Part shown: positions 6,026 to 34,211 of the stretch, one piece after another
How positions within the stretch are numbered: the first letter of the stretch is position 1
How the letters are laid out: each line of letters starts with the position of its first letter
Source of the DNA: Xylanimonas ulmi
GTDB lineage: Bacteria > Actinomycetota > Actinomycetes > Actinomycetales > Cellulomonadaceae
Direction: 5' to 3'
DNA length: 64,000 bases
NCBI RefSeq assembly: GCF_004216535.1
Contig: NZ_SGWX01000001.1
Location: 2,294,001 to 2,358,000 of the forward strand
Translations under genes and position numbers: made by a program
The notes under the pieces: generated by a model
What the model was told of the DNA's origin: nothing
Database searches by the model: none
What the model saw: the letters and a program-made list of their open reading frames with translations, nothing else

Positions 6026-6092
6026 TTCACCCTGATGCCGACCGGTTTCGCCCGCTGTGCCCTGCGGCTCGCGCCGCGTGCGCGACTAGCGT
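6026..6092 (+). promoter_or_regulatory. EPS-locus activator box A and -10
   Basis: TTCACCC (6026-6032) and TTCGCCC (6047-6053) form a direct repeat with 21-bp spacing. Exactly 33 nt later comes the -10 box TAGCGT (6087-6092). It faces the GMC oxidoreductase gene at 6139. No recognisable -35 hexamer lies between, as expected for an activator-dependent promoter. The same layout recurs at 8648, 16646, 18723 and, on the minus strand, at 23821 and 32875. Confidence 0.75.
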
Positions 6093-6138
6093 GGCGATGC
6101 GAGAGCACGACCCCTCCACGCGATCACGGAGCCGAAGA

Positions 6139-7800
6139 GTGACGATCATCGCCGCCGACCAGACACCCCCTGCCGACTGCGATGTGTGCGTCGTCGGCGC
6201 CGGACCCGTGGGCCTGGCGACCGCGATGGCGTCGGCCAAGCTGGGCCGGCGCGTGCTGCTGGTCGACGCCGGAACCCTGACCTCCGGCGGCCAGGACGTG
6301 GACCTGAACGCCGACGGCCTGCCGACGCGGGTCCTCGACGCGGCGCGACACGCGCCGCTGGAGCAGACCACGCGACGCGGGATCGGCGGAACCTCGGCGC
6401 TCTGGGGCGGTCGCTGCGTCCGGTTCGAGCCCATCGACTTCGAGGCCCGCGACTACCTCCCCGACAGCGAGTGGCCCATCGACGTCCACGATGTCGAGAA
6501 GTGGCAGGCGGACGCCGCCGAGTACCTCGACTGCGGCGCCGCGGTGTTCCGCTCCTCGCAGCCGGACTGGGACGGGCTGGACGACTTCGAGATGTCGCAG
6601 TTGGAGCGCTGGGCGCGTCAGCCCAAACTCGCGCCGGGCCTGGGCGCCCGCGTCGTCGAGCACCCCCTCATCCACGTGCTCCTGGCCACGCGCCTGTCCG
6701 ACCTCGACCTGGACGCCGGCGGCTCGGTCACCTCCCTCGTCGTGGAGCGCGCCGGGGTGACGACGCGGCTGACCGCGGGCTCGTACGTGCTCGCCATGGG
6801 AGGCCTGGAGATCACGCGGTTCCTGCTGGGCGTCCAGCAAGACCACCCGGAGGCGTTCGGCGGGATCGACGGACCGCTGGGCCGGTACTACATGGGCCAC
6901 GCCACGGGCTCCATCGCCGACATCATCTTCGACGACCCCAAGCGCGCCGCTGAGATCGACTTCGAGCGCGACACCGACGGCACCTACGTGCGGCGACGGT
7001 TCACGCTGACCGCGCAGGCGCAGCGCCGCCATCAGGTGCTCAACACCAGCTTCTACCTCGACAACCCCCCGTTCTACGAGGAGGAGCACCGCAACCCCAC
7101 GCTCTCGCTCGTCTTCCTGGGCCTGGCCGTCGCTCCGATCGGCCGTCGGCTCATCGCCGAGGGGATCCGGCTGCGCCACATCGGCCCGCCGCCGTACCAC
7201 TACGGCGCGCATCTGCTCAACGTCCTGCGCAGGCCGTGGCGCGCCGCCTTGGACGTGCTCGACGTTCTGCGGGAGCGGTATCTGTCCCGCGTGCGCCGGC
7301 CGGGCTTCATCCTGCGCAACCCGTCCGGCCGCTACGCGATCCACTACCACGCCGAGCAGATCCCGAACCCGGACTCCCGCGTCTTCGTCCAGACGCGGCC
7401 CGACGGCAGCCCGGAGCTGCAGATCGACTTCCGGTACGTCGAGCAGGACATCGACTCGCTGCTGCGCTGCCACGAGCTGCTCGACAAGCAGCTGCGGTCC
7501 GCGGGCATCGGCCGGGTCGAGTACCTCGCGAAGGATCCGGAGGGTGTGCGCGCCTCGGCGTGGGAGCAGGCCACGGACGGGTTCCACAGCATCGGGACCA
7601 CCCGGATGAGCTCTGAGCCGGGCGACGGCGTCGTCGACGGCGAGTGCCGCGTGCACGGCCTGGACAACCTCTACCTCTCGTCCAGCAGCGTGTTCCGCAC
7701 CGCCGGCGAGGCCAACCCGACGTTCCTCGCGGCCTGCCTCGGCGTGCGTCTGGCCCACCATCTCGCGTCGGTGCGCTCACGCCCCAAGGCCGCCGCCTGA
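6139..7800 (+). CDS. GMC-type FAD-dependent oxidoreductase
   Basis: Predicted cytoplasmic flavoenzyme oxidising an alcohol, probably a sugar or lipid-linked sugar given its place at the head of an EPS locus. The 553-residue protein has the N-terminal Rossmann FAD motif (VVGAGPVG, glycines at 20-25), a GGTSALWGGR flavin-contact segment near 80-90, and the C-terminal GMC domain with FHSIGTTRMS and a closing NPTFLAACLG segment. The GTG at 6139 is preferred (GGAG 7 nt upstream); an in-frame ATG at 6097 overlaps the promoter. The next gene starts 10 bp after the stop, so the two are probably co-transcribed from box A. The substrate cannot be read from the sequence. Confidence 0.85.
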   Translation: MTIIAADQTPPADCDVCVVGAGPVGLATAMASAKLGRRVLLVDAGTLTSGGQDVDLNADGLPTRVLDAARHAPLEQTTRRGIGGTSALWGGRCVRFEPIDFEARDYLPDSEWPIDVHDVEKWQADAAEYLDCGAAVFRSSQPDWDGLDDFEMSQLERWARQPKLAPGLGARVVEHPLIHVLLATRLSDLDLDAGGSVTSLVVERAGVTTRLTAGSYVLAMGGLEITRFLLGVQQDHPEAFGGIDGPLGRYYMGHATGSIADIIFDDPKRAAEIDFERDTDGTYVRRRFTLTAQAQRRHQVLNTSFYLDNPPFYEEEHRNPTLSLVFLGLAVAPIGRRLIAEGIRLRHIGPPPYHYGAHLLNVLRRPWRAALDVLDVLRERYLSRVRRPGFILRNPSGRYAIHYHAEQIPNPDSRVFVQTRPDGSPELQIDFRYVEQDIDSLLRCHELLDKQLRSAGIGRVEYLAKDPEGVRASAWEQATDGFHSIGTTRMSSEPGDGVVDGECRVHGLDNLYLSSSSVFRTAGEANPTFLAACLGVRLAHHLASVRSRPKAAA

Positions 7801-7810
7801 CGGCCCGACG

Positions 7811-8647: not shown

Positions 8648-8704
8648 TTCACCTGCGGTTCACCCGCACCGGCCCTCCCCGGCCTGCGGACCGCTCGATA
8701 GCGT
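8648..8704 (+). promoter_or_regulatory. EPS-locus activator box B and -10
   Basis: TTCACCT (8648-8654) and TTCACCC (8659-8665) are direct repeats with 11-bp spacing, very like the 11-bp repeat units of Streptomyces PhoP boxes (GTTCACC). The gap to the -10 box TAGCGT (8699-8704) is again exactly 33 nt. It drives the AMP-ligase gene at 8731, whose GTG has GAGGAGG upstream. Confidence 0.75.
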
Positions 8705-11182: not shown

Positions 11183-11587
11183 ATGCTGCACGGAGCCGGG
11201 ATCGACGTCGCCGACGTCGCGCGGATCGCGCGGCTCGTCGAGCGGCGCGGACCGGCGTTCACCACCCGCTGGTTCGCCGCGGCGGAGATCGCGCAGTGCG
11301 AGCGGGCGGCCGTCACGACGGCGGCGTTCGCCGGGGTCTACGCCGCCAAGGAGGCCGTGTGGAAGGCGTTGGCGATCCGCGCCTGGCCGGGCCCGGTGCC
11401 CTGGCGTTGGATCTGCGTCACCGAGTCGGCACCGGGCCGCTGGTCCGTGCGGCTGGGCGGGCCGGTCGCCGACGCGGCCCAGGCCGCGGGGGTGGGCGAG
11501 GTGCGGGTCCACATCGCCCAGGGCGGCGCGGTGGCGACGGCCGTCGCCCTCGCCACACGCGCGGTCAGTGGCGCCCCACCTGCGTGA
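11183..11587 (+). CDS. AcpS-type 4'-phosphopantetheinyl transferase
   Basis: Transfers phosphopantetheine from CoA to the Ser of a carrier protein. The 134-residue protein matches the small trimeric AcpS family: GIDVADVARI at 6-15 with metal ligand Asp8, FTTRWFAAAE at 26-35, and AAKEAVWKAL at 54-63 with Glu57. It differs enough from a housekeeping AcpS to suggest dedication to the carrier protein at 14758. It is the last gene of the box-B operon, and its 3' end overlaps the convergent NAD-synthase-like gene by 23 bp. Confidence 0.85.
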   Translation: MLHGAGIDVADVARIARLVERRGPAFTTRWFAAAEIAQCERAAVTTAAFAGVYAAKEAVWKALAIRAWPGPVPWRWICVTESAPGRWSVRLGGPVADAAQAAGVGEVRVHIAQGGAVATAVALATRAVSGAPPA

Positions 11588-12548
11588 CCGCCTCGGCCAG
11601 CACGGGCGGCTCATGCAGGTACGCCGTCGTGCGCCGCTTCTGCTCGATGTCGCGGTAGACCCGCCGCACCTGCTCGACACTCAGGCCCGTCGCCTCGGCC
11701 ACCGCCTCGATGGGCACCTCGTTGTTCAGGCCGTAGAGGCACAGGTCCATGCGCTGGTATGGCAGCGAGAAGTAGAACTCCTCCTGCGACTGCGCGAGCG
11801 AGTACGTGTCGGTCGTGGAGGGGCGGCGCTGGATCTCCTCGGGAACCCCGAGGTGCGCGGCGAGGGCGTACACCTGCGACTTGTACAGGTGGGCGATCGG
11901 CTTGACGTCGGCGGCGCCGTCGCCGAGCTTCACGAAGAACCCCTGGTCGTACTCCAACCGGTTGGGCGTCCCGGTCACGACGTAGTTGAGCCGGTCAGCG
12001 TGGTAGTACTCGAGCATCTTGCGGGTGCGCTGCTTGAAGTTCGTGGCTGCGACGACGCTCAGGTAGGCCTCGGTGGTCAAGCGCCGCGTGATCTGGGCGC
12101 CGTCGGGCGCCTGCGCGACGATGGAGTACAGCCGGAAGGAGTCGGAGTCGACGACGCTCGGCAGCACGATCTTCGACAGCCATCCGGGCCCGTACTGCGG
12201 AATCACCCGGCGGATGGCCTCGTCGCGTCGCTGGTAGCACCCCGCGGCCTCGAGGATCGGGGCGATGTTCTCCACGACGGAGTCGACGCCGAGCGCGTCC
12301 GTGAGCTTGGTCGAGTACGCGAGCGACTCGTCCGAGGACTCCGACTCGGGCAGGTGCAGCCCGAACACGCGGTCGGCGCCCAGGGCGCGCACGGCCAGCG
12401 CGGCGACGAGAGACGAGTCGATCCCGCCGGACACGGCGACGACGGCGCCCTTGCGCCGCGATCGGCTGACGTACTGCCGGATCGAGGCGGAGATGTGCGC
12501 CACCGCGGCCTCGTTGTCGAGGGCGAGGGCGTTGGGCCCGAACTCCAT
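11565..12548 (-). CDS. NAD-synthase-like ATP-dependent amidase/ligase
   Basis: Belongs to the PP-loop NAD synthase family, which adenylates a carboxylate and replaces it with an amide. The 327-residue protein has SGGIDSS at 40-46, GTPNRLEYDQGFF and KLGDGAADVKPIAHLYKSQV, which correspond to the NH3-NAD synthase core. An extra segment after about residue 110 makes it longer than ordinary NadE (about 275 residues). It starts 3 nt after the asparagine synthetase stop, so the two are translationally coupled. This pairing and its place in an EPS locus argue for an amidation in sugar or acyl tailoring, not NAD synthesis, but the substrate is unknown. Confidence 0.75.
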   Translation of the reverse strand: MEFGPNALALDNEAAVAHISASIRQYVSRSRRKGAVVAVSGGIDSSLVAALAVRALGADRVFGLHLPESESSDESLAYSTKLTDALGVDSVVENIAPILEAAGCYQRRDEAIRRVIPQYGPGWLSKIVLPSVVDSDSFRLYSIVAQAPDGAQITRRLTTEAYLSVVAATNFKQRTRKMLEYYHADRLNYVVTGTPNRLEYDQGFFVKLGDGAADVKPIAHLYKSQVYALAAHLGVPEEIQRRPSTTDTYSLAQSQEEFYFSLPYQRMDLCLYGLNNEVPIEAVAEATGLSVEQVRRVYRDIEQKRRTTAYLHEPPVLAEAVTQVGRH

Positions 12549-12551
12549 AGG

Positions 12552-14540
12552 TCACGGCTCCTTGGTGGGGGTCATGCGGTCGAACACCGCCATGGGTGAG
12601 GCAGGCGCGGCGGGCAGATGCCGCCCGCCGTCGATGAAGAGCTGGTGGAGCAGCTGGACGGAGACGACCGCCACGAGCCGCATGTTGTCGGTGTTGCTCA
12701 TCCCTCGCCCGAGGGTCTTGCGGCACTTGGCGAGCAGTCGCTCGACGACGACCGGCTGGAAGACGCCCGCGGCCTTGACCGCCTCAGGCGACAGCGCCTC
12801 CTCCAGCCACGGCGGGGCGCCGTGGGAGAAGAAGCTCGCCGCGTCGGGGGCCCGGTAGGGCTGCTTCGGACGGGCGATGATCTGTGGCGGCACGAGGTCC
12901 GCGAACGCCCGCTTGAGCAGGTGCTTCTCGTCCATCCCCCGAATGAGCTGGTCGGCAGGCAGGGCGCCGGCGAACGCGGCGACGTCGGCGTCGAGGAAGG
13001 GGAACCGCCCCTCGACGGAGTTGGCCATGAGCATCCGGTCGCCCTGCGAGGCCAGGATGTAGCCGGGCAGCAAGGTCGCCATCTCCAGCCACTGGGCGCG
13101 GGACAGCGGGTCCCAGCCCGCCGCCTGGGCCGGCATGCGCGCCAGCACCGCCGCGTCCGCCGCGCCGTCGACGCCGAACCGGGCCTCCGCGGTGAGCATC
13201 GACGTGAGCGCCGACGTGGCGCCCCAGCGCGGGCGGTGCGACATGGCGAGGTCGTTGACGTCGAGGTCCTTCCCGAAGAACCTCGCCGCGAAGGCGGGCG
13301 CGAGCGCGGGTGAGCGCCTCATCCACGGATACAGCTGCTCGACCGCGCGCACGCGGTCGACGGCGTCGGGGTCGCGCGCCCACTGCTCACGCAGCCTCGC
13401 CTCACGGAAGATGTCGTACCCCGCCAGCACCTCGTCCGAGCCCTCGCCGGTGACCACGACCTTGTACCCGGACTCCCGCACGAGCCGTGACAGCAGGAGC
13501 ATCGGCGCGGGGGCGGTGCGCAGCAGGACGTTCTCGGCGTGCCAGACGACGTCGGGGAAGACGTCCGCGATCTCTCGCTCGGTCACGACGACCTCACGGT
13601 GCGTCGTGGCCAGGCGGTCGCTCATCATGCGCTGGTATCGGCCCTCGTCGAACTCGACGTCGGCGAAGCGCAGCGAGAAGGTGTGCAGCTCCGCGTCGGT
13701 GTACGCGGTGATGGCCGCCGCCGTGACCGCCGAGTCGAGCCCGCCTGACAGGTACGCGCCGACGGGGACGTCGCTGCGCTCGAACCGCAGCCGGGTCGCC
13801 CGCACGATCCGCTCACGCAGCTCCTGCGCGTGGGCGCGCACGTCCTGGCGCGACGCCTGGCCGTGCTCGGGGAAGGTCGGCTCCCAGTAGCGGTGCTCGT
13901 GCGCGGCGCCGCCGCGCACGACCAGGTAGGTCCCGGGCGGAACCTGGCGCACGCCGTCGAACACCGTGCGGGGAGCGACGGGTGACCACAGCGTCATCGC
14001 CTGGTCGAGCCCCGTGGGGTCGAACGCGCGCCGCACCTGGGGGTCGGCGAATATCGCCTTGACCTCGGAGGCGAACAGCAGCCGTTCGCCGACCGAGGCG
14101 TAGAACAGCGGACGCACCCCGAAGCGGTCCCGCGACAGCACCAGCTCACCGGTCCGGCGGTCCCAGATCGCCAGCGCCCACTGCCCGTTGAACCGCTCGA
14201 AGCACTCTGTGCCCCACTCCTTCCAGGCCTGGACGATCACCTCGGTGTCCGACCGGGTGCGCAGGCGGCGCCCACGATCGCGCAACTGTGCGGCGAGCTC
14301 GACGTGGTTGAAGATCTCGCCGTTGAACGTGACCCACACCTGTTCGTCCTCGTCGCTCATGGGCTGCGCTCCGCCCTCGACGTCGACGATCGCCAGGCGG
14401 GTGTGCCCGAGTGCGACCTGGTCGTCACGGAACCACCCGCACGCGTCGGGACCCCGGTGGTGCAGCGCCGCCATCATCCGCTGGACGAGCGCGGCGTCAG
14501 GCGCCGCCGACGGCGAGCGGACCCCGCAGATCCCGCACAT
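12552..14540 (-). CDS. asnB: Glutamine-hydrolysing asparagine synthetase family protein
   Basis: Class II glutamine amidotransferase fused to an asparagine-synthetase domain. The start ATG at 14540 is chosen so that the catalytic Cys follows Met directly (MCGICG); an ATG six bases upstream would block it. GGAGG lies 8 nt before. The 662-residue protein shows RLAIVD and FNGEIFNH in the glutaminase half and the PP-loop SGGLDS at 265-270 plus GEGSDE in the synthetase half. EPS loci often carry such paralogs to amidate sugars or acyl groups, so this need not make asparagine. It heads a two-gene operon with the NAD-synthase-like gene, and its promoter shares activator box C with the carrier-protein gene. 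Confidence 0.88.
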   Translation of the reverse strand: MCGICGVRSPSAAPDAALVQRMMAALHHRGPDACGWFRDDQVALGHTRLAIVDVEGGAQPMSDEDEQVWVTFNGEIFNHVELAAQLRDRGRRLRTRSDTEVIVQAWKEWGTECFERFNGQWALAIWDRRTGELVLSRDRFGVRPLFYASVGERLLFASEVKAIFADPQVRRAFDPTGLDQAMTLWSPVAPRTVFDGVRQVPPGTYLVVRGGAAHEHRYWEPTFPEHGQASRQDVRAHAQELRERIVRATRLRFERSDVPVGAYLSGGLDSAVTAAAITAYTDAELHTFSLRFADVEFDEGRYQRMMSDRLATTHREVVVTEREIADVFPDVVWHAENVLLRTAPAPMLLLSRLVRESGYKVVVTGEGSDEVLAGYDIFREARLREQWARDPDAVDRVRAVEQLYPWMRRSPALAPAFAARFFGKDLDVNDLAMSHRPRWGATSALTSMLTAEARFGVDGAADAAVLARMPAQAAGWDPLSRAQWLEMATLLPGYILASQGDRMLMANSVEGRFPFLDADVAAFAGALPADQLIRGMDEKHLLKRAFADLVPPQIIARPKQPYRAPDAASFFSHGAPPWLEEALSPEAVKAAGVFQPVVVERLLAKCRKTLGRGMSNTDNMRLVAVVSVQLLHQLFIDGGRHLPAAPASPMAVFDRMTPTKEP

Positions 14541-14587
14541 CCTCAACTCCTCCTGCGGGTGGCGCCCGCACCGGCTGTCTCTCCCTC

Positions 14588-14633: not shown

Positions 14634-14710
14634 TTCACCCCCGCGCCCCAGGGTTTCGCCCACTGAGAAAACCTTTGCCGCCTTGAGTCATCTCATGGCC
14701 CGGATATTCA
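14634..14710 (+). promoter_or_regulatory. EPS-locus activator box C and -10
   Basis: TTCACCC (14634-14640) and TTCGCCC (14655-14661) are 21 bp apart as in boxes A, D and G. At the standard 33-nt distance there is no TAnnnT; the best -10, TATTCA (14705-14710), is 43 nt away, one helical turn further. It faces the carrier-protein gene at 14758. Confidence 0.6.
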
Positions 14711-15657: not shown

Positions 15658-16551
15658 TCAGTCGTCCTGACCGGGGTTCGGGCGCGGGCGCGCGTCGGCG
15701 CCGTCGGCCATCGCGTCCACGGCGTCGAGCGCCGTCGCGAGGTCGAGGCTGGCGGCGGCGGCCGCCACCGCCCCCGCCAGCAGCGCCGAGCCCGCCAGCG
15801 CCATCGCCCACTGCGGCGCGTCCGGCCGCGTGACGTCGAGCAGGACGACGCCGCCGACCGCCCACGCCAGCAGCCCCAGCGAGACCAGACCGAGCGCCAC
15901 CGCGAAGGTGTCGACCGGGCGACCGCCTCGGACGACGGCGGCGGCCACGGCGACGCAGGCGGCGACCGTGAGCTGGGCGAGCACGCCCTGGGACACCAGG
16001 TGCCACTGCGCGACGACGACCGACGCGGCCACGCCCGCCGCGACGGCGACCGCGAGCACGGTCGCCCACCGGCGTCGGCGCAGCGCCGTCAGGACGACGG
16101 GCGCCACGGCCACGACCATCGCCGCGTGCCCGCTCAGCACGGGGCGTTGCGGCACCTGGCCGAGCAGGTCGGGGAACGGGATCACCCCGTGCTTGAACGC
16201 CTCGGCGAGCACGAGCCCGGCGCCGCCGGCGCACAGCCCGACCATCGCGGAGCGCCGTCGTCCACCCCGCACGAGGTGGGCGGCGGCCAGCAGCGCGGCC
16301 ACCCCCAGCGCTGGATGCGTCAGCCACTTGACGCCGCCACGCATGACCCGCCACAGCCCGTCGCGGTGGATCAGGTTCGCCGACGCCAGGGAGTCCCAGG
16401 GATGGGCCGCCGGCCCGGCCAGCACGGCGCCCACCACGCTCAGGGCGATGAGCGCCCCGACGAGCACGGCGGCCGGCCCGGCGGCATCGCGCACGTGACG
16501 GCGCGGACGCCCGGCCCGACGGCCACGCACGTCGACTGACTCGCTCACCAC
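15658..16551 (-). CDS. PAP2-superfamily membrane phosphatase, degenerate
   Basis: About 297 residues with several membrane helices. PAP2 motifs can be traced: KHGVIPF then QRPVLSGHAAM (SGH catalytic His), and QWHLVSQ, where the His is kept but the usual following Asp is replaced by Gln. In EPS systems such enzymes recycle undecaprenyl pyrophosphate. The missing Asp and the loose first motif leave activity in doubt. Start is GTG at 16551 or the next GTG at 16548; GGGGAG precedes both. It is transcribed divergently from the WecG-type gene across box D. Confidence 0.7.
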   Translation of the reverse strand: MVSESVDVRGRRAGRPRRHVRDAAGPAAVLVGALIALSVVGAVLAGPAAHPWDSLASANLIHRDGLWRVMRGGVKWLTHPALGVAALLAAAHLVRGGRRRSAMVGLCAGGAGLVLAEAFKHGVIPFPDLLGQVPQRPVLSGHAAMVVAVAPVVLTALRRRRWATVLAVAVAAGVAASVVVAQWHLVSQGVLAQLTVAACVAVAAAVVRGGRPVDTFAVALGLVSLGLLAWAVGGVVLLDVTRPDAPQWAMALAGSALLAGAVAAAAASLDLATALDAVDAMADGADARPRPNPGQDD

Positions 16552-16645: not shown

Positions 16646-16712
16646 TTCACCCCGGGTTCCGCGGTTTTCGCCCGCTCGTGCGGGTCCATCGGCACACGCC
16701 TCCGCCTAGCGT
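16646..16712 (+). promoter_or_regulatory. EPS-locus activator box D and -10
   Basis: TTCACCC (16646-16652) and TTCGCCC (16667-16673) are 21 bp apart, and the -10 TAGCGT (16707-16712) follows after exactly 33 nt. The geometry is identical to box A. It faces the WecG-type glycosyltransferase gene at 16798. Confidence 0.75.
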
Positions 16713-18722: not shown

Positions 18723-18788
18723 TTCACCCGCGGACCGTCGATTTCACCCCGAACGCCCTCAAGCCGGGCCAAGGCGATGAACTAGCGT
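18723..18788 (+). promoter_or_regulatory. EPS-locus activator box E and -10, pointing antisense
   Basis: TTCACCC (18723-18729) and TTCACCC (18743-18749) are 20 bp apart, and TAGCGT (18783-18788) follows after exactly 33 nt. It points rightward, yet the next gene (18829-19539) is on the opposite strand; the first sense gene is at 19581. Transcription from here would run antisense through the Wzz-like gene. Confidence 0.65.
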
Positions 18789-18828: not shown

Positions 18829-19539
18829 CTAATCGGTCACTGCGCCATTCGAGGCCGTGACAAGGCGCTGCGGGTCCGGCTCCACCAAGACGGGGACGCT
18901 CATGCGCCGGCGGCCCAGCCGCCGGTCGATGATGACGGCGCCCGCGACCGTGACGGACAGACCCAGCAGACCGGTCATCAGCACCGCGCGGGCGAGCCCG
19001 CCGGTGTCGGAGCCGACGTAGGAGACGGGGACGTGATCGAGCACCGGCTGAACGGTCATCTGCGCCGCCGGCGCGATGCCCTGCTCGCCCTGGAGCCGAG
19101 CGGCGTCGTCCTGCAGCTCCCCGACGATCGCCACGTACCGCTCCTCGACGGCGACGGGGTCCGCGCCGACGACCTCGACCAGCAACCGCGGCATGGAGAA
19201 CGAGTTGACCCACTGGTTGCCGCCCTTGAGCATCAGCACCGAGTCGCCGTCCCGCACGCCCGCGCCCCACAACGTCGCCTCGGAGCTGCCCAGCCGGATC
19301 GGCTCGCCGCCGTTGTACTCCCGCTCCAGCATCACGGCGAACGTGATCAGGCCGGACTCGAACTCGTAGTCGGGAAGGTCGTCGACGTGCGCGCCGGGCG
19401 CCAGGACCCGCACCTCGCCACGCAGCCAGTACAACGGCTGCGGACGAGAGACCTGCCAGCACGCCGCGGCGGTCAGCACCAGGCCGACGAGCACCACGAT
19501 CCAGCGCACACGCGAGGTTCGGAGATCACCCATCGCCAT
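18829..19539 (-). CDS. Wzz-like two-helix membrane protein
   Basis: A 236-residue protein with one membrane helix near each end (about 12-30 and 185-207) and an extracytoplasmic middle, the topology of chain-length determinant (Wzz) proteins. The sequence motifs are weak, so the family is inferred from topology and locus. The start ATG at 19539 is chosen because AAGGAGA lies 11 nt upstream and the first helix follows. It is divergent from the rhamnosyltransferase-like gene with only 41 bp between the starts. It could work with the second Wzz-like protein at 20494 to set polymer length. Confidence 0.6.
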   Translation of the reverse strand: MAMGDLRTSRVRWIVVLVGLVLTAAACWQVSRPQPLYWLRGEVRVLAPGAHVDDLPDYEFESGLITFAVMLEREYNGGEPIRLGSSEATLWGAGVRDGDSVLMLKGGNQWVNSFSMPRLLVEVVGADPVAVEERYVAIVGELQDDAARLQGEQGIAPAAQMTVQPVLDHVPVSYVGSDTGGLARAVLMTGLLGLSVTVAGAVIIDRRLGRRRMSVPVLVEPDPQRLVTASNGAVTD

Positions 19540-19580
19540 CGTCGCCCGATCTCCTTCCCCAAGGCCTGCGGAGGTCTTCA

Positions 19581-21312: not shown

Positions 21313-22640
21313 CCTCCGCCACCCCGACGCTCGTCGGCGCGGTCCAGCCCCAGCGGCGGCGCGGCTTTGACGCCGTGAGCATGCTGACCATCTACATGGT
21401 GGTGCTCTACGGCATCCCGTCTGGCACGGCGATCGCGGCGCTCGGCTCGCTGGGGCGGGTGTGCCACTTCGTCGGCATCGCCTGCCTGCTGTGGTGGTTC
21501 GCCGAGCTCATCCGCCGTCAGGCCTCGCCCTTCCGCCAAGTCCAGCCGATCCGGATCGCGCTGGCGGTCTTCGCGGTCGCAGCCGTCGTCAGCTACATCG
21601 GCGGCGCCGCGCGCGGACTGCCCATCGCGGAGCGCAGCCCCAGCGAGACCTCGCTCATCCGCCTGGCCAGCCTGATCGGGCCGGCCCTGCTGGCGATCGA
21701 CGGCATCCACACCCGCGAGCGCCTCATCGTGCTGATCAAGCGGGTCGTGATCGCGGGCGCGGCGATGGCGACGCTGGGCATCGCCCAGTTCGTCACGGGT
21801 CGGCAGCTGCTGGGCGGGCTCACGCTGCCCGGGTTCACGTCGCTCGCCCTCGGGGTGTCCGAGCGCGGTGGGTTCGCGCGCGCGGCGGGGACTGCGATGC
21901 AGGCCCTGGAGTACTCGACCGTCCTGGCGGCGGCGCTCCCGCTGGCCGTCAACGCCAGCATCTTCCTCTACCGCCCAGGGACGCTGCGACGCTGGTATCC
22001 GGCGTTGGTGCTCGCCCTCGCGTCGTTGCTCTCGGTGTCACGGTCGGCGCTCATCTGCTCGGCGGTCGGCGTGCTGATCCTCCTGCCGACGTGGCCGCGG
22101 CGGGTCCGCGCCCGCGCCGTGTGGGTGGGGGTCGTCATGCTGGGCGCCGTCTATGTGGCGGTGCCCGGGATGATCGGCACGATCCGCGGCCTGTTCACCA
22201 CGTCTGACGGGAGCGCCGACTCCCGCACCGGGGCGTGGGACGCGGCGTTCGACATCGCGAAGAACCACCTGGTCTTCGGCCGCGGCTTCGGCTCCTTCCA
22301 GCCCCTCTACCAGATCTTCGACGACGAGTACCTGACCCTGCTCGTCGAGGTCGGGATCGTCGGCACGGTCGCGTTCCTCGGCATGATCGTCACGGCGATG
22401 GTCGTGGCGCGCCGCTGCGCCGCGCGGGCGGGCGACGACGTCGTCCTGGCCACGCAGTCGCAGGCGATGCTCGCCTCGATGGCGGCGATGGGCCTGATCA
22501 TGGCGTTCTTCGACGGGCTGGCGTTCCCGATCGCGGCGGGCACGCTGTTCCTGGTCATCGGGTGTGTGGGCGCGGCGTGGAACCTCACCGGGCAGAGCGG
22601 GCAGCGCCCCGCCCCCGCGCTCGGCGACGCCGGCGCGTGA
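21309..22640 (+). CDS. Wzy-like O-antigen polymerase/ligase
   Basis: A 443-residue integral membrane protein with about ten to twelve helices and a large loop carrying SDGSADSRTGAWDAAFDIAKN and FGRGFGSFQP (longest run cited is split), the pattern of the Wzy_C / O-antigen ligase family. It would join lipid-linked repeat units on the outer face of the membrane. Coupled to wzz through an ATGA overlap. Its last 56 bp overlap the end of the convergent GT4 gene, an unusually long 3' overlap, but both frames look genuine. Confidence 0.82.
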   Translation: MTSATPTLVGAVQPQRRRGFDAVSMLTIYMVVLYGIPSGTAIAALGSLGRVCHFVGIACLLWWFAELIRRQASPFRQVQPIRIALAVFAVAAVVSYIGGAARGLPIAERSPSETSLIRLASLIGPALLAIDGIHTRERLIVLIKRVVIAGAAMATLGIAQFVTGRQLLGGLTLPGFTSLALGVSERGGFARAAGTAMQALEYSTVLAAALPLAVNASIFLYRPGTLRRWYPALVLALASLLSVSRSALICSAVGVLILLPTWPRRVRARAVWVGVVMLGAVYVAVPGMIGTIRGLFTTSDGSADSRTGAWDAAFDIAKNHLVFGRGFGSFQPLYQIFDDEYLTLLVEVGIVGTVAFLGMIVTAMVVARRCAARAGDDVVLATQSQAMLASMAAMGLIMAFFDGLAFPIAAGTLFLVIGCVGAAWNLTGQSGQRPAPALGDAGA

Positions 22641-23739
22641 GCCGGGCCGCGTCGCTCAGCACGGCGGTGACGCCGTCGGCGAAGACCCGGTGGTCGAAGG
22701 ACTCGGTCACCAGGGCGCGACCCGCGGCCCCCATGGCCTCGGCCCGCGCCGGGTCGTTCCACAGCGCGACGATGGCCTCCCGCAGCGCCTGGACGTCACC
22801 GACGGGCGTCCACTGCCCGTGCGTGCCGCCCACGAACGCGTCGCGTTGGCCCGCCACCTGGGAGACGACGACGGGCTTGCCCATCGACCACGCCTCGTCC
22901 ATGCACGTGATCCCGTTGTCGCTGTCGGTGTGCCGCAGGGGCACCACGACGACGCGGGCGCGGGCGTACAGCGCGCGCAGGCTCACCTTGTCCATCGGTC
23001 CGAGGGTGACGTTCGGCGGCAGCGCGTCGCGCTGGCCGCTGACGTCGTCACGCCACCACTCGCGGCTGGACGTGTCGAGGCTGCCGGCGATGTGGCACGG
23101 GATGTCGAGACCGTCCATGGCGCGCACCAAGGTCGCGTAGTCACGCATCTCTCCGCCCGCGGCGCAGACCGTCGCCGGCTCATGCGGCAGATCGTCGCGA
23201 TCGCTCCAGAACTCGGTGTCGACGGTCCAGGGCAGGTCGACCAGCTTCTCGGCGGGTACGCCGAGCCGTTCGACGGCGAACTCGCGCTGCGTGACGGGCG
23301 GCAGGATGATCGAGGTCAGGTGCGTGTGCACCCGCCGCAGCAGCGCTGCCTTCTTGGCCTCCGAGACCCGGGTGAACAGGGCGACGACGGGCAGCCTGCG
23401 GAAGGTGAGCTTGAGGGCCGCGGCGAGCACGAGCGCCACGTCGGCCACCGACCAGCAGAACACCACGTCATACCGGTGCCCCACGCGGTAGGCCTCGGCG
23501 ACCTGGACCGCCCACATCGGCAGCGGCCGGTAGAGCGCGCGCAGCCAGCGCGGCGGGTTGGTCGCCAGCCGCTGGTCGAGGAAGGTGAGGTCGGCCGAGA
23601 CCTCGTTGATCCACGCCCTCGGCTCGACGCCGGCGTCGCGGTAGCGCGGCAACTCCTCCGGGTATGGCGGAAAGAACACTGTCGAGGGGATGACCAACAC
23701 GCGCAGGCCCCCCGCAGGCCGGTCTTGCCCAGTGCCCAT
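22585..23739 (-). CDS. GT4-like glycosyltransferase
   Basis: A 384-residue GT-B fold enzyme. The C-terminal donor half shows CAAGGEMRDYATLV, HIAGSLD, RVVVVPLRHTDSDNGITCMDEAWSMGKPVV (key residues: the Asp/Asn-Gly segment followed by Glu-Ala and GKPVV), the sugar-nucleotide site of GT4 enzymes. GGGGAGG precedes the ATG at 23739. It is transcribed alone from box F. It adds one sugar of the EPS repeat unit; which one is unknown. Confidence 0.85.
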   Translation of the reverse strand: MGTGQDRPAGGLRVLVIPSTVFFPPYPEELPRYRDAGVEPRAWINEVSADLTFLDQRLATNPPRWLRALYRPLPMWAVQVAEAYRVGHRYDVVFCWSVADVALVLAAALKLTFRRLPVVALFTRVSEAKKAALLRRVHTHLTSIILPPVTQREFAVERLGVPAEKLVDLPWTVDTEFWSDRDDLPHEPATVCAAGGEMRDYATLVRAMDGLDIPCHIAGSLDTSSREWWRDDVSGQRDALPPNVTLGPMDKVSLRALYARARVVVVPLRHTDSDNGITCMDEAWSMGKPVVVSQVAGQRDAFVGGTHGQWTPVGDVQALREAIVALWNDPARAEAMGAAGRALVTESFDHRVFADGVTAVLSDAARLTRRRRRARGRGAARSAR

Positions 23740-23765: not shown

Positions 23766-23821
23766 ACCCTAGACGGGCCGGCGCCAACGGAGCGCGCCAG
23801 GCGGGGTGAACTGCGGGTGAT
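23766..23821 (-). promoter_or_regulatory. EPS-locus activator box F and -10
   Basis: On the minus strand ATCACCC (23821-23815) and TTCACCC (23810-23804) are 11 bp apart, and TAGGGT (23771-23766) follows after 32 nt. It drives the GT4 gene at 23739. Spacing resembles box B. Confidence 0.65.
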
Positions 23822-23928: not shown

Positions 23929-24465
23929 ATGGGACTGCGCCACGGGGCCCGCGCGGGGCTCTTACGGGTCGTGCGGCCGTCGACGTGGCGCCAGTGGGCG
24001 CGCGTCGCCAACTTCTTGGGCTACGACGGCGCCGAGCTGCGCGAGGCGAGCGTCGGCGCGGGCGCCCGGATCTCGCCGACGGTCTCGGTCCGCAACGGCC
24101 GGCGCGTCAGCGTCGGGGCCGGCGCCCAGATCGGCGCGTCGTGCTCGCTGTGGGCGGGCGACTCGACCGGCCGCATCGTGATCGGCGACCATGCCCTGTT
24201 CGCACCCGACGTGTTCGTCACGGCCTCGAACTATGACTTCGACGCCGTCCCCGGTCCCGTCATGGCGGCGCCCAAGCGTGAGGCGGACGTGACGATCGGC
24301 GCGAACACGTGGCTCGGCGCGCGGGTGGTCGTCCTTCCCGGAGTGTCCATCGGGGACGGCTCCGTGGTCGCCGCAGGCTCCGTCGTCACGAAGGACCTGC
24401 CGCCCGGCGTCCTGGCCGCGGGCGTGCCCGCGCGCGTGATCCGCAAGCGAGGAGAGCAGCGGTGA
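23929..24465 (+). CDS. Hexapeptide-repeat sugar O-acetyltransferase
   Basis: A 178-residue left-handed beta-helix acyltransferase of the WbbJ/maltose-acetyltransferase type. Hexapeptide repeats run from about residue 40 to 160 (VSVGAGAQIGASC, IVIGDHALFAPDV, VTIGANTWLGARVVVLPG) and end with GVPARVIRKRG. It probably acetylates a sugar of the repeat unit in the cytoplasm. GGAGA precedes the ATG. The stop overlaps the GTG of the next gene by 4 bp. Confidence 0.85.
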   Translation: MGLRHGARAGLLRVVRPSTWRQWARVANFLGYDGAELREASVGAGARISPTVSVRNGRRVSVGAGAQIGASCSLWAGDSTGRIVIGDHALFAPDVFVTASNYDFDAVPGPVMAAPKREADVTIGANTWLGARVVVLPGVSIGDGSVVAAGSVVTKDLPPGVLAAGVPARVIRKRGEQR

Positions 24466-25400
24466 GCGCTCCCGAGCTCGCGATCGTGCTCGTCACCTAC
24501 AACAGCGCCGACTGGATCGGCCGGTGCCTGCGCGCGCTTCCCGCCGCGCTCGACGGTCGCTGCGCCCAGGTGGTGGTCGTCGACAACGCGTCCGCGGACG
24601 CGACCGCCGACGTCGTCGAGCGTGACCACCCGCAGACCGTGCTGATCCGCAACGCGCACAACGCCGGCTTTGCGGCCGCCGTCAACGCCGGCGCCCGCGC
24701 CGTCGCCTCCGACTGGGTTCTGCTCCTCAACCCGGACACCGAGGCGAGGCCGGGCTCGCTGCGCAATCTGGTGGACTTCGCCGAACGCAACCCCGGCCAC
24801 GGCCTGTACGGCGGGCGCACCCTGCGTCCGGACGGCTCGCTCGAGCCCACCTCGTGCGCGGGGCTGCCGAGTCTGTGGAGCACCGCGTGCTTCGCGCTCG
24901 GCCTGTCGACGGCGTTCCGCGGCTCGTCGGTCTTCGACCCCGAGTCCCTGGGGCGGTGGCAGCGTGACACGGTCCGCGAGGTGGGGTCGGTGACCGGATG
25001 CCTGCTGCTCGTCGATCGGGCGACGTGGGACCGGCTCGGCGGCCTCGATGAGCGCTACTTCGTCTACGGCGAGGACGTCGACCTGTCCGCCCGCGCGCGC
25101 CGACTCGGGCTGCGTCCCGTCATCACGCCGGACGCCGAGGTGGTGCATGGGGTGGGAGAGTCCTCCCCCGGCTCGGAGGGCTCGATGCTGCTCGCGCTGG
25201 CGGGCAAGGTGACCTACTCGCGCACCCACTTCCCGCCCGTCGCCGCGGCGCTGGCCGTCGGACTGCTGCGCCTCGGCGTCGGGCTGCGCGCCGCGGGCGC
25301 CCGCCTGACCGGCAAGGGCCAGGGCTGGCGGGTTGGCTGGCGCGAGCGCGCGCGCTGGTGGAACGGGTTCCCCGCCCGCCCGCAGCACGCCGCGGGCTGA
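24462..25400 (+). CDS. GT2 family glycosyltransferase (rhamnosyltransferase-like)
   Basis: A 312-residue GT-A enzyme. IVLVTYNSADWI and VVVDNASADAT form the nucleotide-binding half, NAGFAAAVNAG and LLLNPDTE carry the metal-binding residues, and GACLLV-like SVTGCLLLVDR plus YGEDVDLSARAR hold the acceptor/base Asp. This pattern is that of WbbL/RfbN-type rhamnosyltransferases. GTG start at 24462, coupled to the acetyltransferase gene (GTGA) with GGAGAG upstream. Confidence 0.87.
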   Translation: MSAPELAIVLVTYNSADWIGRCLRALPAALDGRCAQVVVVDNASADATADVVERDHPQTVLIRNAHNAGFAAAVNAGARAVASDWVLLLNPDTEARPGSLRNLVDFAERNPGHGLYGGRTLRPDGSLEPTSCAGLPSLWSTACFALGLSTAFRGSSVFDPESLGRWQRDTVREVGSVTGCLLLVDRATWDRLGGLDERYFVYGEDVDLSARARRLGLRPVITPDAEVVHGVGESSPGSEGSMLLALAGKVTYSRTHFPPVAAALAVGLLRLGVGLRAAGARLTGKGQGWRVGWRERARWWNGFPARPQHAAG

Positions 25401-25477: not shown

Positions 25478-27100
25478 TCAGACGGTCACGGTGGTCTGCT
25501 CGGCCGGAGTCGAGTCCCCATCAGCCGAGTCCTCGCCGCCCGCGCCCCGGCGCGAGCGCCGTCGCAGGAGGCCCCACGCGCTCGCCGCGAGGCGGCTGAG
25601 CTCGTCCCACGTGGGACGGACGGCCAGGCGGAGCGCTCCGGCGAACGCGACGACGACGACGACCCCGATGACGGCCAACGCCGCGACGCGCGGCAGCCCC
25701 GCGACTAGCAGGCTCACCCCGTAGCCGAACCCCGCGGCGACCGCTATGGGCGCCAGCGTCCGCAGCAGCGGGGTCGCGACGGCGAACCACGGCGCGTGCA
25801 GCAGACGCCCGACCAGGATCCAGCGGGCGACCGCGCCCGTCGTCGCCGCGGCGAGGGCGCCCAGCGCATAGGCGATCAGCCCGTGGGGGGCGAGGGCCAT
25901 GGCCGCCAGGACCGTGATGATCTGAAGGCCGGTGAAGTAGGCGAACCACGTGCCCGGCCGCCCGACGCTGATGAACAGCGCAGAGTCGATCCCGGTCATG
26001 GCCACGGCGAGACCCGCGACGGCGAGCACCTGGGCGGGTCCGGCGCTCGGTCCCCACTGCCCGCCGAAGAGCAGTGGAATCAGTTGCGGGGCGCCGACCG
26101 CCACGAAGACGAGCACGACGCCGACGATCGCGGTCGAGACCGACACCGCGCGCAGGTACCCGGCCAGCAGCCTGTCGGCGGCGCCCCGGATCCGCGAGAA
26201 CATCACCGTCGTCACCGGGCCCAGCGCCGTCGTCGTCATCTCCTGCGAGAGCGTGATCAGGCGCTGCGCGATGTTCACGTACCCGAGCCCCGCCGGGCCG
26301 AGGGCTCCGGCGATGACGGCGTTGACCGCCCACAGGCCGGCCGGCTCGGCGATGTGGGCTCCGATCACCTTCACGCCGAACCGGGTCATGTGCTTGAACT
26401 CCGCGAGGGAGAACGTCAGCTGCGGGCGGAACCGCGACACGACCCAGGCCAGCACGAGCTGGATGAGCTGGACGCTGAGCGCCTGCCACACCAGAGCCCA
26501 GGCGCCGAAGCCCGCCAACGCCATCGCGACCGCGATCACCTGGCCGATCAGACCGGCGACGAACGACATCATGGCGAGCGCGCGGAAGCGCAGGGTGCGG
26601 CGCAGGATCGCGACCGGCACGGCCCCGAGGATGACCAGCAGCGCCATCGGCGCGATCGCCGCGCTGACCGGCACCACGTCAGGCGAGTCGACCACGACCC
26701 CGACGAGGGGCGCTGCGGCGAGCAGCAGCAGCGTGACCACGATCCCTGCGCCGGCCGAGTACCAAAAGACCGTGGAGTAGGTCCGCTTGGTCGGCTTGTC
26801 GGCCTGCAGGATGTACGTCGACAGACCCATGTCGGCGAGCGGCTGCAGCATCGGCGGCAGGGCGGTCGCGATGGCGACGAGGCCGAAGTCCGCCGGTGTG
26901 AGCAGCCGTGCGAGCAGCGCGATCGTCGCGAAGCCCGTCAGCCGGATGGCCCACGTCTGCAGGGTCGTCCACGCCACACCGGTCGCGGCCGCCCTGGCGA
27001 GCCCCCCGGGTGGCGGTTCTGCGGCTCGCTGGGCGACGCCGCCCATGGCCGGGCCTGATTGGTCCGGCCCTGGTTCCCGCTCGCCCCTGTCCGGCTTCAT
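25478..27100 (-). CDS. Wzx-like lipid-linked oligosaccharide flippase
   Basis: A 540-residue membrane protein of the MOP (polysaccharide transporter) superfamily with about fourteen helices. The opening ARLLTPADFGLVAIATALP and the GLSTYILQADKP segment are typical for Wzx/lipopolysaccharide exporters. It would flip undecaprenyl-linked repeat units outward for Wzy. The C-terminal tail is basic then acidic and extends beyond the membrane core. It has its own promoter (box H) although it follows the GT4 gene by only 76 bp. It converges on the GT2 gene at 25400 with 77 bp of GC-rich spacer. Confidence 0.88.
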   Translation of the reverse strand: MKPDRGEREPGPDQSGPAMGGVAQRAAEPPPGGLARAAATGVAWTTLQTWAIRLTGFATIALLARLLTPADFGLVAIATALPPMLQPLADMGLSTYILQADKPTKRTYSTVFWYSAGAGIVVTLLLLAAAPLVGVVVDSPDVVPVSAAIAPMALLVILGAVPVAILRRTLRFRALAMMSFVAGLIGQVIAVAMALAGFGAWALVWQALSVQLIQLVLAWVVSRFRPQLTFSLAEFKHMTRFGVKVIGAHIAEPAGLWAVNAVIAGALGPAGLGYVNIAQRLITLSQEMTTTALGPVTTVMFSRIRGAADRLLAGYLRAVSVSTAIVGVVLVFVAVGAPQLIPLLFGGQWGPSAGPAQVLAVAGLAVAMTGIDSALFISVGRPGTWFAYFTGLQIITVLAAMALAPHGLIAYALGALAAATTGAVARWILVGRLLHAPWFAVATPLLRTLAPIAVAAGFGYGVSLLVAGLPRVAALAVIGVVVVVAFAGALRLAVRPTWDELSRLAASAWGLLRRRSRRGAGGEDSADGDSTPAEQTTVTV

Positions 27101-27132: not shown

Positions 27133-27211
27133 AGGCTACGGCGCGCCGCGGCTCGCCAGGCTGGCACGGGTCATCCTCACCCGGGTGAACCGGCCGACCA
27201 CTCGGGGCGAC
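27133..27211 (-). promoter_or_regulatory. EPS-locus activator box H and -10 (weaker)
   Basis: On the minus strand GTCGCCC (27211-27205) and TTCACCC (27189-27183) are 22 bp apart; TAGCCT (27138-27133) follows after 44 nt, one 11-bp unit more than in box A. TTCACCC here is also part of a 12-bp palindrome TCACCCGGGTGA. It faces the flippase gene and overlaps the end of the upstream GT4 gene. Confidence 0.45.
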
Positions 27212-31755: not shown

Positions 31756-32802
31756 TCAGGTGGCGCCCACGGCCGCGAACCGCAGGGACGCGGAGTCCAT
31801 GCGTGTCTTGAGCCGAAGGAATGGCATTTCGACGTACCGGTACGAGAACGCCGGTACGACGAGACTGAGGACGAGGATGATCGGCAGGAGTGGCAGCCGT
31901 GAGGGGACGACCGCCGACACGATCGCCGCGAGCACAGGGTTCCAGAGGTAGATGCCGTAGGAGCGACGTCCGATCCAGGTCAGGGGGCGGCGAGACAGGA
32001 GCGCCGCGAGCCAACTCTCACCGTGGGATGCGACGGCGGCGATGATGACGGCGGCGGCGACGCCGACCGCCAGGTCATCGCCGACGTACGCGACGGGCAG
32101 GACAATCTCGGCCACCACGAACCCTGCCGCGAGCACTGCGTGCCACGGACGGACCTTGACATGCCCCTCGGCCACCTGGACGGCCAGCGCGCACCCGATC
32201 AGCAGACCGGCCGCGCGCGTGTCGGGCGCGTAGTAGAGCCGCTCGGTCGACCATCCGGACCACAGTCGCTCCACGATCCAGTACACCGCCGCGATCACCG
32301 CGAGTCCCGTGACGATCGAGGCCATGCGGCGTCGGAAGACCTTGGCGATGGCGAGCAGCAGCAGTGGCCAGAACAGGTAGAAGTACTCCTCGACCGAGAG
32401 CGTCCACGTCTGCGCGAACGACCCCAAGGGCTCTCCCGACGCGGCGATCGGCGAGGCGGTGTAGGTGATCGCTCCGAGGGCGCCGAGCAGCGAGTCCGCG
32501 CGGTGCGCGACCCCGGGCAGGACGGCGAGGACCGCCCCACCGATCACCACCACGACCACGAGGGCCGGGAACAGCCGCAGCGCGCGCCGAGCGAAGAACC
32601 TCTTGAAGTCGATGCGCCCGCTGCGCTCGAGCTCGCGCAACAGGATTCCGGTGATGAGGTAGCCACTCAGGACGAAGAACACCGAGACGCCGAACTTGCC
32701 CCCGGGCATCCACGTCTCACGGCTGTGATAGCCGATCACGGCGAGCACCGCCAACGCGCGCAGACCGTCCAGCGCGCCGACGTGCGTCGATCTCTGAGTC
32801 AC
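31756..32802 (-). CDS. Acyltransferase-3 family membrane protein
   Basis: A 348-residue integral membrane O-acyltransferase (OafA/YrhL type) with about ten helices. The N-terminus DGLRALAVLAVIGYHS carries the family His, and FFVLSGYLITGILL, RRALRLFPAL and TWTLSVEEYFYLFWP are characteristic. It would acylate the polysaccharide using a cytoplasmic acyl donor. The GTG at 32802 lies 7 nt after the box-G -10, so the mRNA is probably leaderless. It leads the operon with the PIG-L deacetylase (35 bp downstream). Confidence 0.9.
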   Translation of the reverse strand: MTQRSTHVGALDGLRALAVLAVIGYHSRETWMPGGKFGVSVFFVLSGYLITGILLRELERSGRIDFKRFFARRALRLFPALVVVVVIGGAVLAVLPGVAHRADSLLGALGAITYTASPIAASGEPLGSFAQTWTLSVEEYFYLFWPLLLLAIAKVFRRRMASIVTGLAVIAAVYWIVERLWSGWSTERLYYAPDTRAAGLLIGCALAVQVAEGHVKVRPWHAVLAAGFVVAEIVLPVAYVGDDLAVGVAAAVIIAAVASHGESWLAALLSRRPLTWIGRRSYGIYLWNPVLAAIVSAVVPSRLPLLPIILVLSLVVPAFSYRYVEMPFLRLKTRMDSASLRFAAVGAT

Positions 32803-32808
32803 ACCATG

Positions 32809-32875
32809 AGGCTACGATTCGCGCAATGTGACCTGAGGATCCGGAACGGGTGAACGACTTGCGTCCCGGGGTGAA
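32809..32875 (-). promoter_or_regulatory. EPS-locus activator box G and -10
   Basis: On the minus strand TTCACCC (32875-32869) and TTCACCC (32854-32848) are 21 bp apart; the -10 TAGCCT (32814-32809) follows after exactly 33 nt. The acyltransferase start codon begins 7 nt after the -10. Confidence 0.75.
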
Positions 32876-32889
32876 TTCCTGGGGGAGGC

Positions 32890-34116
32890 TCAGTCGGGCG
32901 CGCCGACGACGGTGCCCACTTCCTCGGTCAGGATGCGGGCGACGGCGCCCTCGGCCTCATGCCACGACCTTCCCGTCACGCTCCCCGCGGCGGCGATCGC
33001 CCGGTCGGCGCGATGCGCCGCGGTCACGACCTCGCTGAGCGCGTTCGCCAGCGCCCCGGGCGTCGCCTGCGCCCAGACGACGTGCGGGTTGTCCAGCACG
33101 ATCCGGGCGTACCGATCCTCGTTGACCACGGGGATGACGCCCGCCGCCAGCATCTCCTCGGGGACGAGCGAGACGTTGGTGAACGACAGGGTGAGCCCTG
33201 CGACGACACCGTTGTACAGGGTGTTGAGGTCGCTCGGCCGCACGCTGCCGTGGTTGACGACAGGGAACGGCAGGCCGGAGATGACGTCACCGTAGACGTG
33301 GATCGGGACGTCTGGGTGTCGGGCGTTGAAGAGCTCGAGGGCGCGGACCGCGTGCCGGTAGCCGCGGCGATCGCTGCCACGGCGCGCGTACCACACGACG
33401 CCGTCGCGCGGGCGGCCCGTGGGCTCCAGGCGATACGTCTGCGCGTCCAGCCCGAAGGGGACCAGATCACTGTCGACGCCGAGCTCGTCACGCAGCACCT
33501 CGTGGACCATTCGGCCCAGGGCGAGGTTGCGGAAGCCGAACCGGTAGGAGTCCTCGGCGAAGGCGTACTCGCTGCCGCGCGGGTAGAAGAACGGCTCGTA
33601 GTCCTGGATGAAGTAGAGGCGTCGACCCTCCACGGCCCGGGTGGCGATCACATGCGCCGACGCCCAGTTGGACGCGACGACGGCGTCAAAGCCAGAGATC
33701 TCCTCGGGCACCGGCTTGATCTGCGCTGGCAGCCAGGGCCAGTGGCGCCGGATGACGGCGGCGTGGCGGTCCATGTCGCCGCCGTGGAGGTCGTAGAGCA
33801 GCACCGTCACGTCACATCCTGCGCGGGCGGCCGCTGCGGCCATGCGGAACAGTGTGGTGTGCCCCCCGGAGCCCGCGCTGGGCGGCTGGACCACCCAGGC
33901 GACCTGGGGGCGAGCCCCCGCCGCGCGGCGCGGCATCGCTGTGGGCCGGATGCTCACGGAGTCAGCGAGGTCCCGCTCCAGCGCAGGGAACAGGATCGAG
34001 GCGGCGTCGACTCGGTGGAACAGGCGAACCGCCGCATACCGAATGAGGTACTGCGGCGTTCGGCCTCGGAGCCGGGCCACCCATCGTCCTGGTCCCCGTT
34101 TGGCCATGGTGCTCAC
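32890..34116 (-). CDS. WsaF-like glycosyltransferase
   Basis: A 408-residue GT-B enzyme resembling the rhamnosyltransferase WsaF. The acceptor half has WVVQPPSAGSGGHTTLFRM and VVASNWASAHV; YFIQDYEPFFYPRGSEYAFA is characteristic for WsaF relatives; the donor half has VWYARRGSDRRGYRHAVRAL, LSFTNVSLVPEEMLAAGVIP. The frame is open to 34203, but the GTG at 34116 is preferred because it lies after the -10 at 34161; an ATG at 34107 is the alternative. It is a single-gene unit in the EPS locus and the last EPS gene on this side. Confidence 0.82.
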   Translation of the reverse strand: MSTMAKRGPGRWVARLRGRTPQYLIRYAAVRLFHRVDAASILFPALERDLADSVSIRPTAMPRRAAGARPQVAWVVQPPSAGSGGHTTLFRMAAAAARAGCDVTVLLYDLHGGDMDRHAAVIRRHWPWLPAQIKPVPEEISGFDAVVASNWASAHVIATRAVEGRRLYFIQDYEPFFYPRGSEYAFAEDSYRFGFRNLALGRMVHEVLRDELGVDSDLVPFGLDAQTYRLEPTGRPRDGVVWYARRGSDRRGYRHAVRALELFNARHPDVPIHVYGDVISGLPFPVVNHGSVRPSDLNTLYNGVVAGLTLSFTNVSLVPEEMLAAGVIPVVNEDRYARIVLDNPHVVWAQATPGALANALSEVVTAAHRADRAIAAAGSVTGRSWHEAEGAVARILTEEVGTVVGAPD

Positions 34117-34155
34117 AACCCACCCGCTTCGGTCCGGCCGTCCACGAACGCGCTC

Positions 34156-34211
34156 ATCGTAGCGACTCGCGACCGGCTCACCGCCGCTGATCAGGCAGGT
34201 CACCGGGTGAT
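34156..34211 (-). promoter_or_regulatory. EPS-locus activator half-box J and -10 (weak)
   Basis: On the minus strand ATCACCC (34211-34205) stands 43 nt before TACGAT (34161-34156). A clear second repeat is not visible. The 43-nt gap matches boxes C and H. It faces the WsaF-like gene. Confidence 0.35.

Follow-up and report, generated by a model that had tools for sequence, protein, structure and literature searches.

Several transcription units of the exopolysaccharide (EPS) cluster of Xylanimonas ulmi are preceded by two short direct repeats, TTCACCC or TTCGCCC (together TTCRCCC), at a nearly fixed distance from a -10 box of the form TAnnnT. This arrangement raises two questions: whether the sites belong to one promoter class, and which protein reads them. 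In this study, we analysed the whole 64,000-nucleotide stretch of DNA presented above, referred to as the window, which corresponds to C1:2294001-2358000 of a genome assembled as a single contig of 3.97 Mb. We find that the architecture is real and conserved, and that it reaches beyond the window. The sequences point with good probability to one activator-dependent promoter class that extends across the GTDB family and counts many surface-polysaccharide and envelope genes among its targets. That estimate concerns the class and its having an activator, not the identity of the LuxR-type protein discussed below.

Both strands of the window were scanned for TTCRCCC pairs spaced 10-12 or 20-22 bp, with at most two mismatches, followed by TAnnnT at a gap of 31-35 or 42-45 nt from the proximal word. 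Exactly seven sites were obtained, all between 6.0 and 32.9 kb, in agreement with the preliminary description, which had reported no complete box elsewhere in the window. Six composite sites had a gap of 32-33 nt, compared with 0.025 expected per 64 kb at gaps of 32-34 nt in a first-order Markov simulation (40 runs, same dinucleotide make-up), and no composite site was obtained when the real window was scanned at seven other ranges of gap. The gaps described earlier were checked base by base and found to be right, with 33 nt at 6053/6087, 8665/8699, 16673/16707, 18749/18783 and, on the minus strand, 32848/32814, and 32 nt on the minus strand at 23804/23771. Repeat spacing was also as described: six sites have words 20-22 bp apart, provided that one mismatch is allowed at 27211/27189 (GTCGCCC), and two have words 11 bp apart, with one mismatch in each of these pairs. 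A further group had been placed at 43-44 nt. This held for the minus-strand site 27183/27138 (gap 44, TAGCCT) but not for 14661/14705, where the box is TATTCA and not TAnnnT. The third member, at 34205, is weak: as had been said, no second repeat is clear there, and a single imperfect word, ATCACCC, stands at gap 44.

The same distance was found in other genera. The pattern TTCACCCN13-14TTCRCCC was present in 94 of 150 family genomes, and the reversed pattern gave seven matches in total. Family sites were read from 30 loci and 95 stretches chosen among the matches listed, with coding-looking pairs left out by eye. Before counting, coding pairs of the Sua5/YciO type were dropped by pattern, as was a single coding pair from genus g8; the coding loci L137, L139 and L157 remain within the 102 distinct pairs that were counted. 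After these pairs, nAnnnT stood at gap 33 in 37 and at gap 34 in 11, with a mean of 2.3 at other offsets (p about 3e-34). TAnnnT was found 20 times at 33, twice at 34 and once at 32. Similar sites were then merged by single-linkage clustering, as a guard against orthologues being counted twice. In the resulting 71 clusters, nAnnnT occurred 22 times at 33 and 7 times at 34, with a mean of 1.6 elsewhere and at most 7 at any other offset (p about 2e-19 for offset 33). When our own genus was excluded, 16 and 7 of 62 clusters had nAnnnT at 33 and 34. The last seven pairs read gave one nAnnnT at each of these gaps.

No -35 had been visible in the window, and none is clear in the 48 class sites of the family: at least four of six matches to TTGACA at the appropriate distance were present in 7 of them (15%) vs 7% in shuffled sequences. 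G directly follows the proximal word in 30 of these sites, and TTCGCCC is the proximal word in 8 of the 48. We propose that an activator would bind two direct TTCRCCC words that are 20-21 bp (two helical turns) apart and sometimes 11 bp (one turn). At a distance of 20-21 bp, the two words would face the same side of the helix. The proximal word would end 33-34 nt before the -10, and with the predicted start taken seven nt after the -10, binding would fall at about -49 and -70. These are the positions suggested in the preliminary description. A common architecture with no clear -35 and an activator reading it there is well supported, with the positions themselves deduced from spacing. The activator would recruit RNA polymerase in class I fashion, a contact that we infer, at a promoter whose -35 is not clear, and the few 44-nt gaps would retain helical phase. 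Activation is the likely mode because the -35 is unclear and the distance is fixed, and a repressor would not need a fixed distance. Such a geometry, fixed upstream and helically phased, is that of a class I activator.

Several observations weigh against a single widespread class. No nAnnnT was found at 33 or 34 after 54 of the 102 family pairs, some of which are coding. The 25 pairs read outside the family had nAnnnT three times at 33 and three times at 34, and TAnnnT at neither. The difference between family sites outside the genus (41 of 92) and sites outside the family (6 of 25) is not significant (Fisher p = 0.07), and the restriction of the class to the GTDB family is no more than suggestive. 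In genus g7, which has large genomes, 35 pairs were read, of which 7 had TAnnnT at 32-34 (five at 34), and the highest nAnnnT count was at offset 40 (9 of 35 pairs); six of these 35 pairs are also counted among the 102. Several pairs at offset 40 have a second conserved element in common at that distance, and the g7 pairs with this element may represent another promoter or operator type. At L323, L327, L389, L392, L397, L399, L402, L405 and L409 of g7, the pairs are followed by GGCGTAAAAACGCC...GGCGGGAATGTGTCATTTCC or variants of these, with no TAnnnT at 33-34. In the window itself, 6 of 14 EPS units have no site at all, in a grouping of our own based on genes called by codon use. These are the minus-strand units 11565-14546, 15658-16551, 17792-18649 and 18829-19593 and the plus-strand units 19581-22640 and 23929-25400. 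The earlier statement, by which almost all EPS units would be served, was thus overstated: 8 of 14 units have a site, and two of these are weak (those of the acyl-carrier-protein-like and WsaF-like genes).

In its own genome, the class is concentrated in the EPS cluster and is not confined to it. Seven exact pairs (11-15 nt between words) were present, five of them inside the cluster. One of the other two lies in coding sequence (YciO/Sua5-like, from the translation), and one is without TAnnnT at the right place. A relaxed search with up to two mismatches gave 259 matches vs 81 for the reversed pattern, and one further full site, at C1:2712352 before an unidentified gene, was found among the 26 matches newly read. 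The exact pair was present in 9 of 11 genomes of the genus, with some pairs coding. Composite sites with up to two mismatches numbered 1-5 per genome in G001-G004, where 27-57 kb per genome was read around such sites. In G001 and G002, the promoters of WecG-like genes have the same pair, followed after 33 nt by TAGCGT. In X. pachnodae (G003), the promoter of the acyl-carrier-like gene retains the pair, and a response-regulator gene beside an acetyltransferase-like gene has the pair, 33 nt and TACCGT. The AMP-ligase promoter of the same species has the palindrome ATCACCCGGGTGA instead, with a gap of 44 to TAGCGT, as at window position 27183. Palindromic TCACCC(GG)GTGA variants at gap 44, one helical turn beyond 33, were seen near 9880 in L024 (X. 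pachnodae) and at 27189-27133 and 34211-34156 of the window. No composite with exact words was found in L024-L030 and L035, 8 of the 80 loci kept, and L024 alone was used further.

The EPS cluster encodes glycosyltransferases, a flippase, Wzy- and Wzz-like proteins, an acyltransferase and an AMP-ligase module, as identified with Pfam, which also supplied the names of the genes behind the individual sites unless stated otherwise. It is flanked on the left by an mfd-like gene (2305-5901, minus strand) and on the right by genes for a DUF4190 protein, peptidyl-tRNA hydrolase and L25, in this order (34262-36149, minus strand). On the plus strand, TAGCGT at gap 33 follows the pairs at 6026..6092 (TTCACCC/TTCGCCC, 21 bp), which precedes a GMC oxidoreductase gene at 6139; at 8648..8704 (TTCACCT/TTCACCC, 11 bp), which precedes an AMP-binding ligase gene at 8731; and at 16646..16712 (TTCACCC/TTCGCCC, 21 bp), which precedes a WecG/TagA glycosyltransferase gene at 16798. 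The plus-strand site 14634..14710 has a perfect TTCACCC/TTCGCCC pair, 21 bp apart, before a small gene at 14758 that is without a Pfam match and was read by us as an acyl carrier protein. Its -10 is doubtful, either TATTCA at gap 43 or TTCAAT at gap 45. The pair is kept at the X. pachnodae orthologue, where the common TTCAAT stands at gap 34 and not 45. A fifth plus-strand site, 18723..18788 (TTCACCC/TTCACCC, 20 bp, gap 33, TAGCGT), faces the 3' end of a conserved minus-strand gene (18829-19509/19593), which has a 44% relative in G002. This site might possibly serve an antisense RNA, a small open reading frame, or a long leader of the rhamnosyltransferase operon at 19581. The Shine-Dalgarno-like GGGGAGGG accompanies the full site there.

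Four sites lie on the minus strand. The site 23766..23821 (ATCACCC/TTCACCC, 11 bp, gap 32, TAGGGT) precedes a glycosyltransferase gene (22585-23739), and 27133..27211 (GTCGCCC/TTCACCC, 22 bp, gap 44, TAGCCT) precedes the flippase gene (25478-27100), with the proximal word extending into the palindrome TCACCCGGGTGA. The acyltransferase gene (31756-32802) is preceded by the site 32809..32875 (TTCACCC/TTCACCC, 21 bp, gap 33, TAGCCT). The -10 begins 12 nt before the GTG, and the transcript is perhaps leaderless. The weak site 34156..34211 (ATCACCCGGTGACC, gap 44, TACGAT) precedes a WsaF-like gene (32890-34080).

No transcriptional regulator was seen among the 29 window proteins scanned against Pfam. 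Our best candidate, put forward tentatively, is a stand-alone LuxR/GerE-type protein of 80 aa encoded outside the window at C1:3298825-3299064. It matches PF00196 (GerE) with 47.2 bits against a cut-off of 23.5, and its nearest solved chains include VpsT, ChrA, GerE, DosR and NarL. Five pairs of genus g9 sit upstream of, and antisense to, a LuxR-domain-only gene beside a gene read as gcvH. In the luxR loci (L136, L138, L140, L142, L145 and L170-L212), the luxR gene adjoins gcvH, as read by eye in those of g1 and g9. Orthologues of luxR were sought by protein, independently of the word. Six genomes of the genus each had a single copy, and at the threshold used none was found in five smaller assemblies. 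In the family, 139 of 150 genomes had the gene, and in the order it was found in 15 of 15 family members vs one weak match among 183 others. Genus g5 (four genomes) has neither the luxR gene nor the pairs, but 56 of the 150 family genomes are without any pair. The word was found upstream of luxR in 25 of 42 loci, and L186, missed in that count, has two words. These upstream regions held 29 words in 10.5 kb and no reversed word, compared with 8 words in the other 124 kb; as close relatives are among them, the loci are not independent. The luxR promoter of G007 has TTCACCC-GC-GGGTGAA. In many loci the region upstream of luxR also contains CGCGTCATGA or close forms, even where the word is lost. 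It is conceivable, at a confidence short of even, that this sensorless 80-residue protein would be a family-wide class I master activator of surface-polysaccharide and envelope genes that reads direct TTCRCCC words separated by two helical turns. It would act next to, and separately from, the phosphate (PHO) regulon, in which nearly the same word is used with another spacing.

Other findings speak against the LuxR protein as the activator. The word is missing from 17 of 42 luxR loci, including all seven of g21, a genus that has class sites, and several g8 species lost the word while keeping the neighbouring CGCGTCATGA. Because of these g8 and g21 upstream regions, our confidence in the candidate, which had already been limited, was lowered slightly. 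The word at luxR is mostly inverted, and no inverted 7-2-7 partner was found beside the half-sites. A composite match, doubtful in both cases, also occurs in two genomes that have no close LuxR. In G134, TACTGT stands at gap 33, and the true -10 may instead be TAGAGT at 23, ahead of a leaderless start; in G009, the match (L015) lies in apparently A+T-rich coding sequence.

For these promoters, a real class read by some other direct-repeat-binding activator is an evenly balanced prospect. Such a reader could be OmpR-like without being PhoP, or of the SARP, MalT or AraC type, with LuxR a mere target or unrelated. True direct repeats without an inverted partner suit a protein of this kind, and the word upstream of luxR, with its many absences, is equally explained by control from above. 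In X. pachnodae, a NarL-type gene stands behind a full site, and none of the ten other genomes of the genus has a close orthologue of it; therefore, regulator genes can be mere targets. The point against such a reader is that no other widely conserved regulator with the word upstream was found in the loci examined, in which not all regulators were surveyed. The NarL-type response regulator of X. pachnodae (L021) was itself considered as the common regulator and rejected, as the best match in our own genome was 32%.

The preliminary description had likened the 11-bp form to Streptomyces PhoP boxes and had guessed at an OmpR/PhoP-type regulator. If PhoP or another phosphate-type OmpR regulator read the words as PHO boxes, EPS would be switched under phosphate limitation. 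The half-site is indeed close to the PHO core of S. coelicolor, which PMC4415409 gives as GTTCACC in repeats of 11 nt. Two window sites are spaced 11 bp, and GTTCACC words occur inside the pstS boxes of the genus. The guess of PhoP as the regulator is not supported by a comparison with the PHO-type boxes of the same genus and family. Of 20 pstS-family loci of the genus, some of them below the family cut-off, 14 contain a pair of GTTCACC-like units with 11-bp spacing, followed by TAnnnT at gap 29 in 5 and gap 30 in 9; one locus has an additional overlapping box at 41. Among 29 family pairs of 10-12 bp, several of them orthologous, the gap peaked at 30 (7) with 2 at 29, none at 33 and one at 34. 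The promoter class described here has gaps of 33-34, a shift of 3-4 nt that is no helical turn, and a spacing of 20-21 bp, which the 48 family class sites have by search design. Its use of TTCGCCC as a proximal word also argues against PhoP. We consider PhoP an improbable reader, and the class is probably not part of the PHO regulon. Two promoter classes with nearly the same word thus coexist, separated by spacing and by the 3-4 nt shift. The 11-bp window sites 8648-8665 and 23821-23804 could bind PhoP and, with gaps of 32-33, may be mixed forms. The gap of 29-30 to TAnnnT at pstS-family genes (14 of 20 loci, L220-L239) is usable as a PhoP-regulon rule. In a different set, the 12-bp-spaced pairs L374, L376 and L378 have no -10 at 30 or 33 and have a GGxCATGCTGA-like stretch downstream in common. 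Overall, the promoter observation as first described was partly confirmed, and its first interpretation, a shared activator promoter with PhoP as a guess, was partly supported.

That the words and TAnnnT boxes reflect chance or the composition of a 73% G+C genome is an explanation already contradicted by the excess over simulation in the window and by the sharp peak at one offset in other genera, and we give it hardly any weight, even though the words are short and reversing the word does not make an entirely fair control in coding sequence.

We next consider the genes behind the promoters in relatives. From 51 downstream proteins extracted, 20 were scanned with Pfam and 18 matched, and by plain count about 9 of the 18 have surface-polysaccharide or envelope functions. 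These include enzymes (GDP-mannose dehydratase, Glycos_transf_2, Acyl_transf_3 of the OafA type and two cytidylyltransferase-type nucleotidyltransferases) as well as PAP2, NlpC/P60, an LPXTG protein and a beta-propeller. The remaining nine are a matrixin, an asparagine-synthase-like protein, an ABC transporter, a TPR protein, MEDS-HATPase, GAF-SpoIIE, DUF6308, DUF4041/T5orf172 and a response regulator. In relatives, genes of the cell wall, genes for surface proteins and others are thus also served by the class. In g9 (L135 and L144), several TTCACCC words lie upstream of a gene that looks TPR-GGDEF-like when its translation is read by eye, which hints at a possible cyclic di-GMP link of the regulon.

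These actinobacteria are known as degraders of cellulose and xylan. If the proposed class is true, they would have a surface regulon whose targets could be predicted from a precise promoter rule, together with a candidate regulator. They would also offer a natural case of two classes that use nearly the same seven-letter word and are separated by spacing (11 vs 20-21) and by -10 distance (29-30 vs 33-34). A search of the open-access literature found no description of this promoter class.

Among known systems, the nearest in sequence is the Streptomyces-type PHO box, in which a near-identical 7-nt core (PMC4415409) forms direct repeats before the -10 as here. Unlike PHO-type boxes, with 11-nt repeats and a gap of 29-30 in this genus, the present sites mostly have 20-21 bp and a gap of 33-34, have a proximal word whose fourth base is either A or G, and in the window precede envelope and not phosphate genes. 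The candidate regulator shares the GerE domain with GerE, NarL, DosR and VpsT, and GerE (the 74-residue chain 1fse) is likewise short. It differs from regulators of the GerE/LuxR family in having no sensor or receiver, and its putative sites are direct words two turns apart with no inverted 7-2-7 arrangement. In overall layout, the sites resemble promoters of class I activators, for example CRP with sites near -61.5. They are alike in a site centred near -60, a fixed distance to the core, no clear -35, and occasional sites that stand an additional turn away (44 instead of 33), the phasing resting on few 44-nt sites. Unlike the CRP palindrome, the element described here consists of two short asymmetric direct words.

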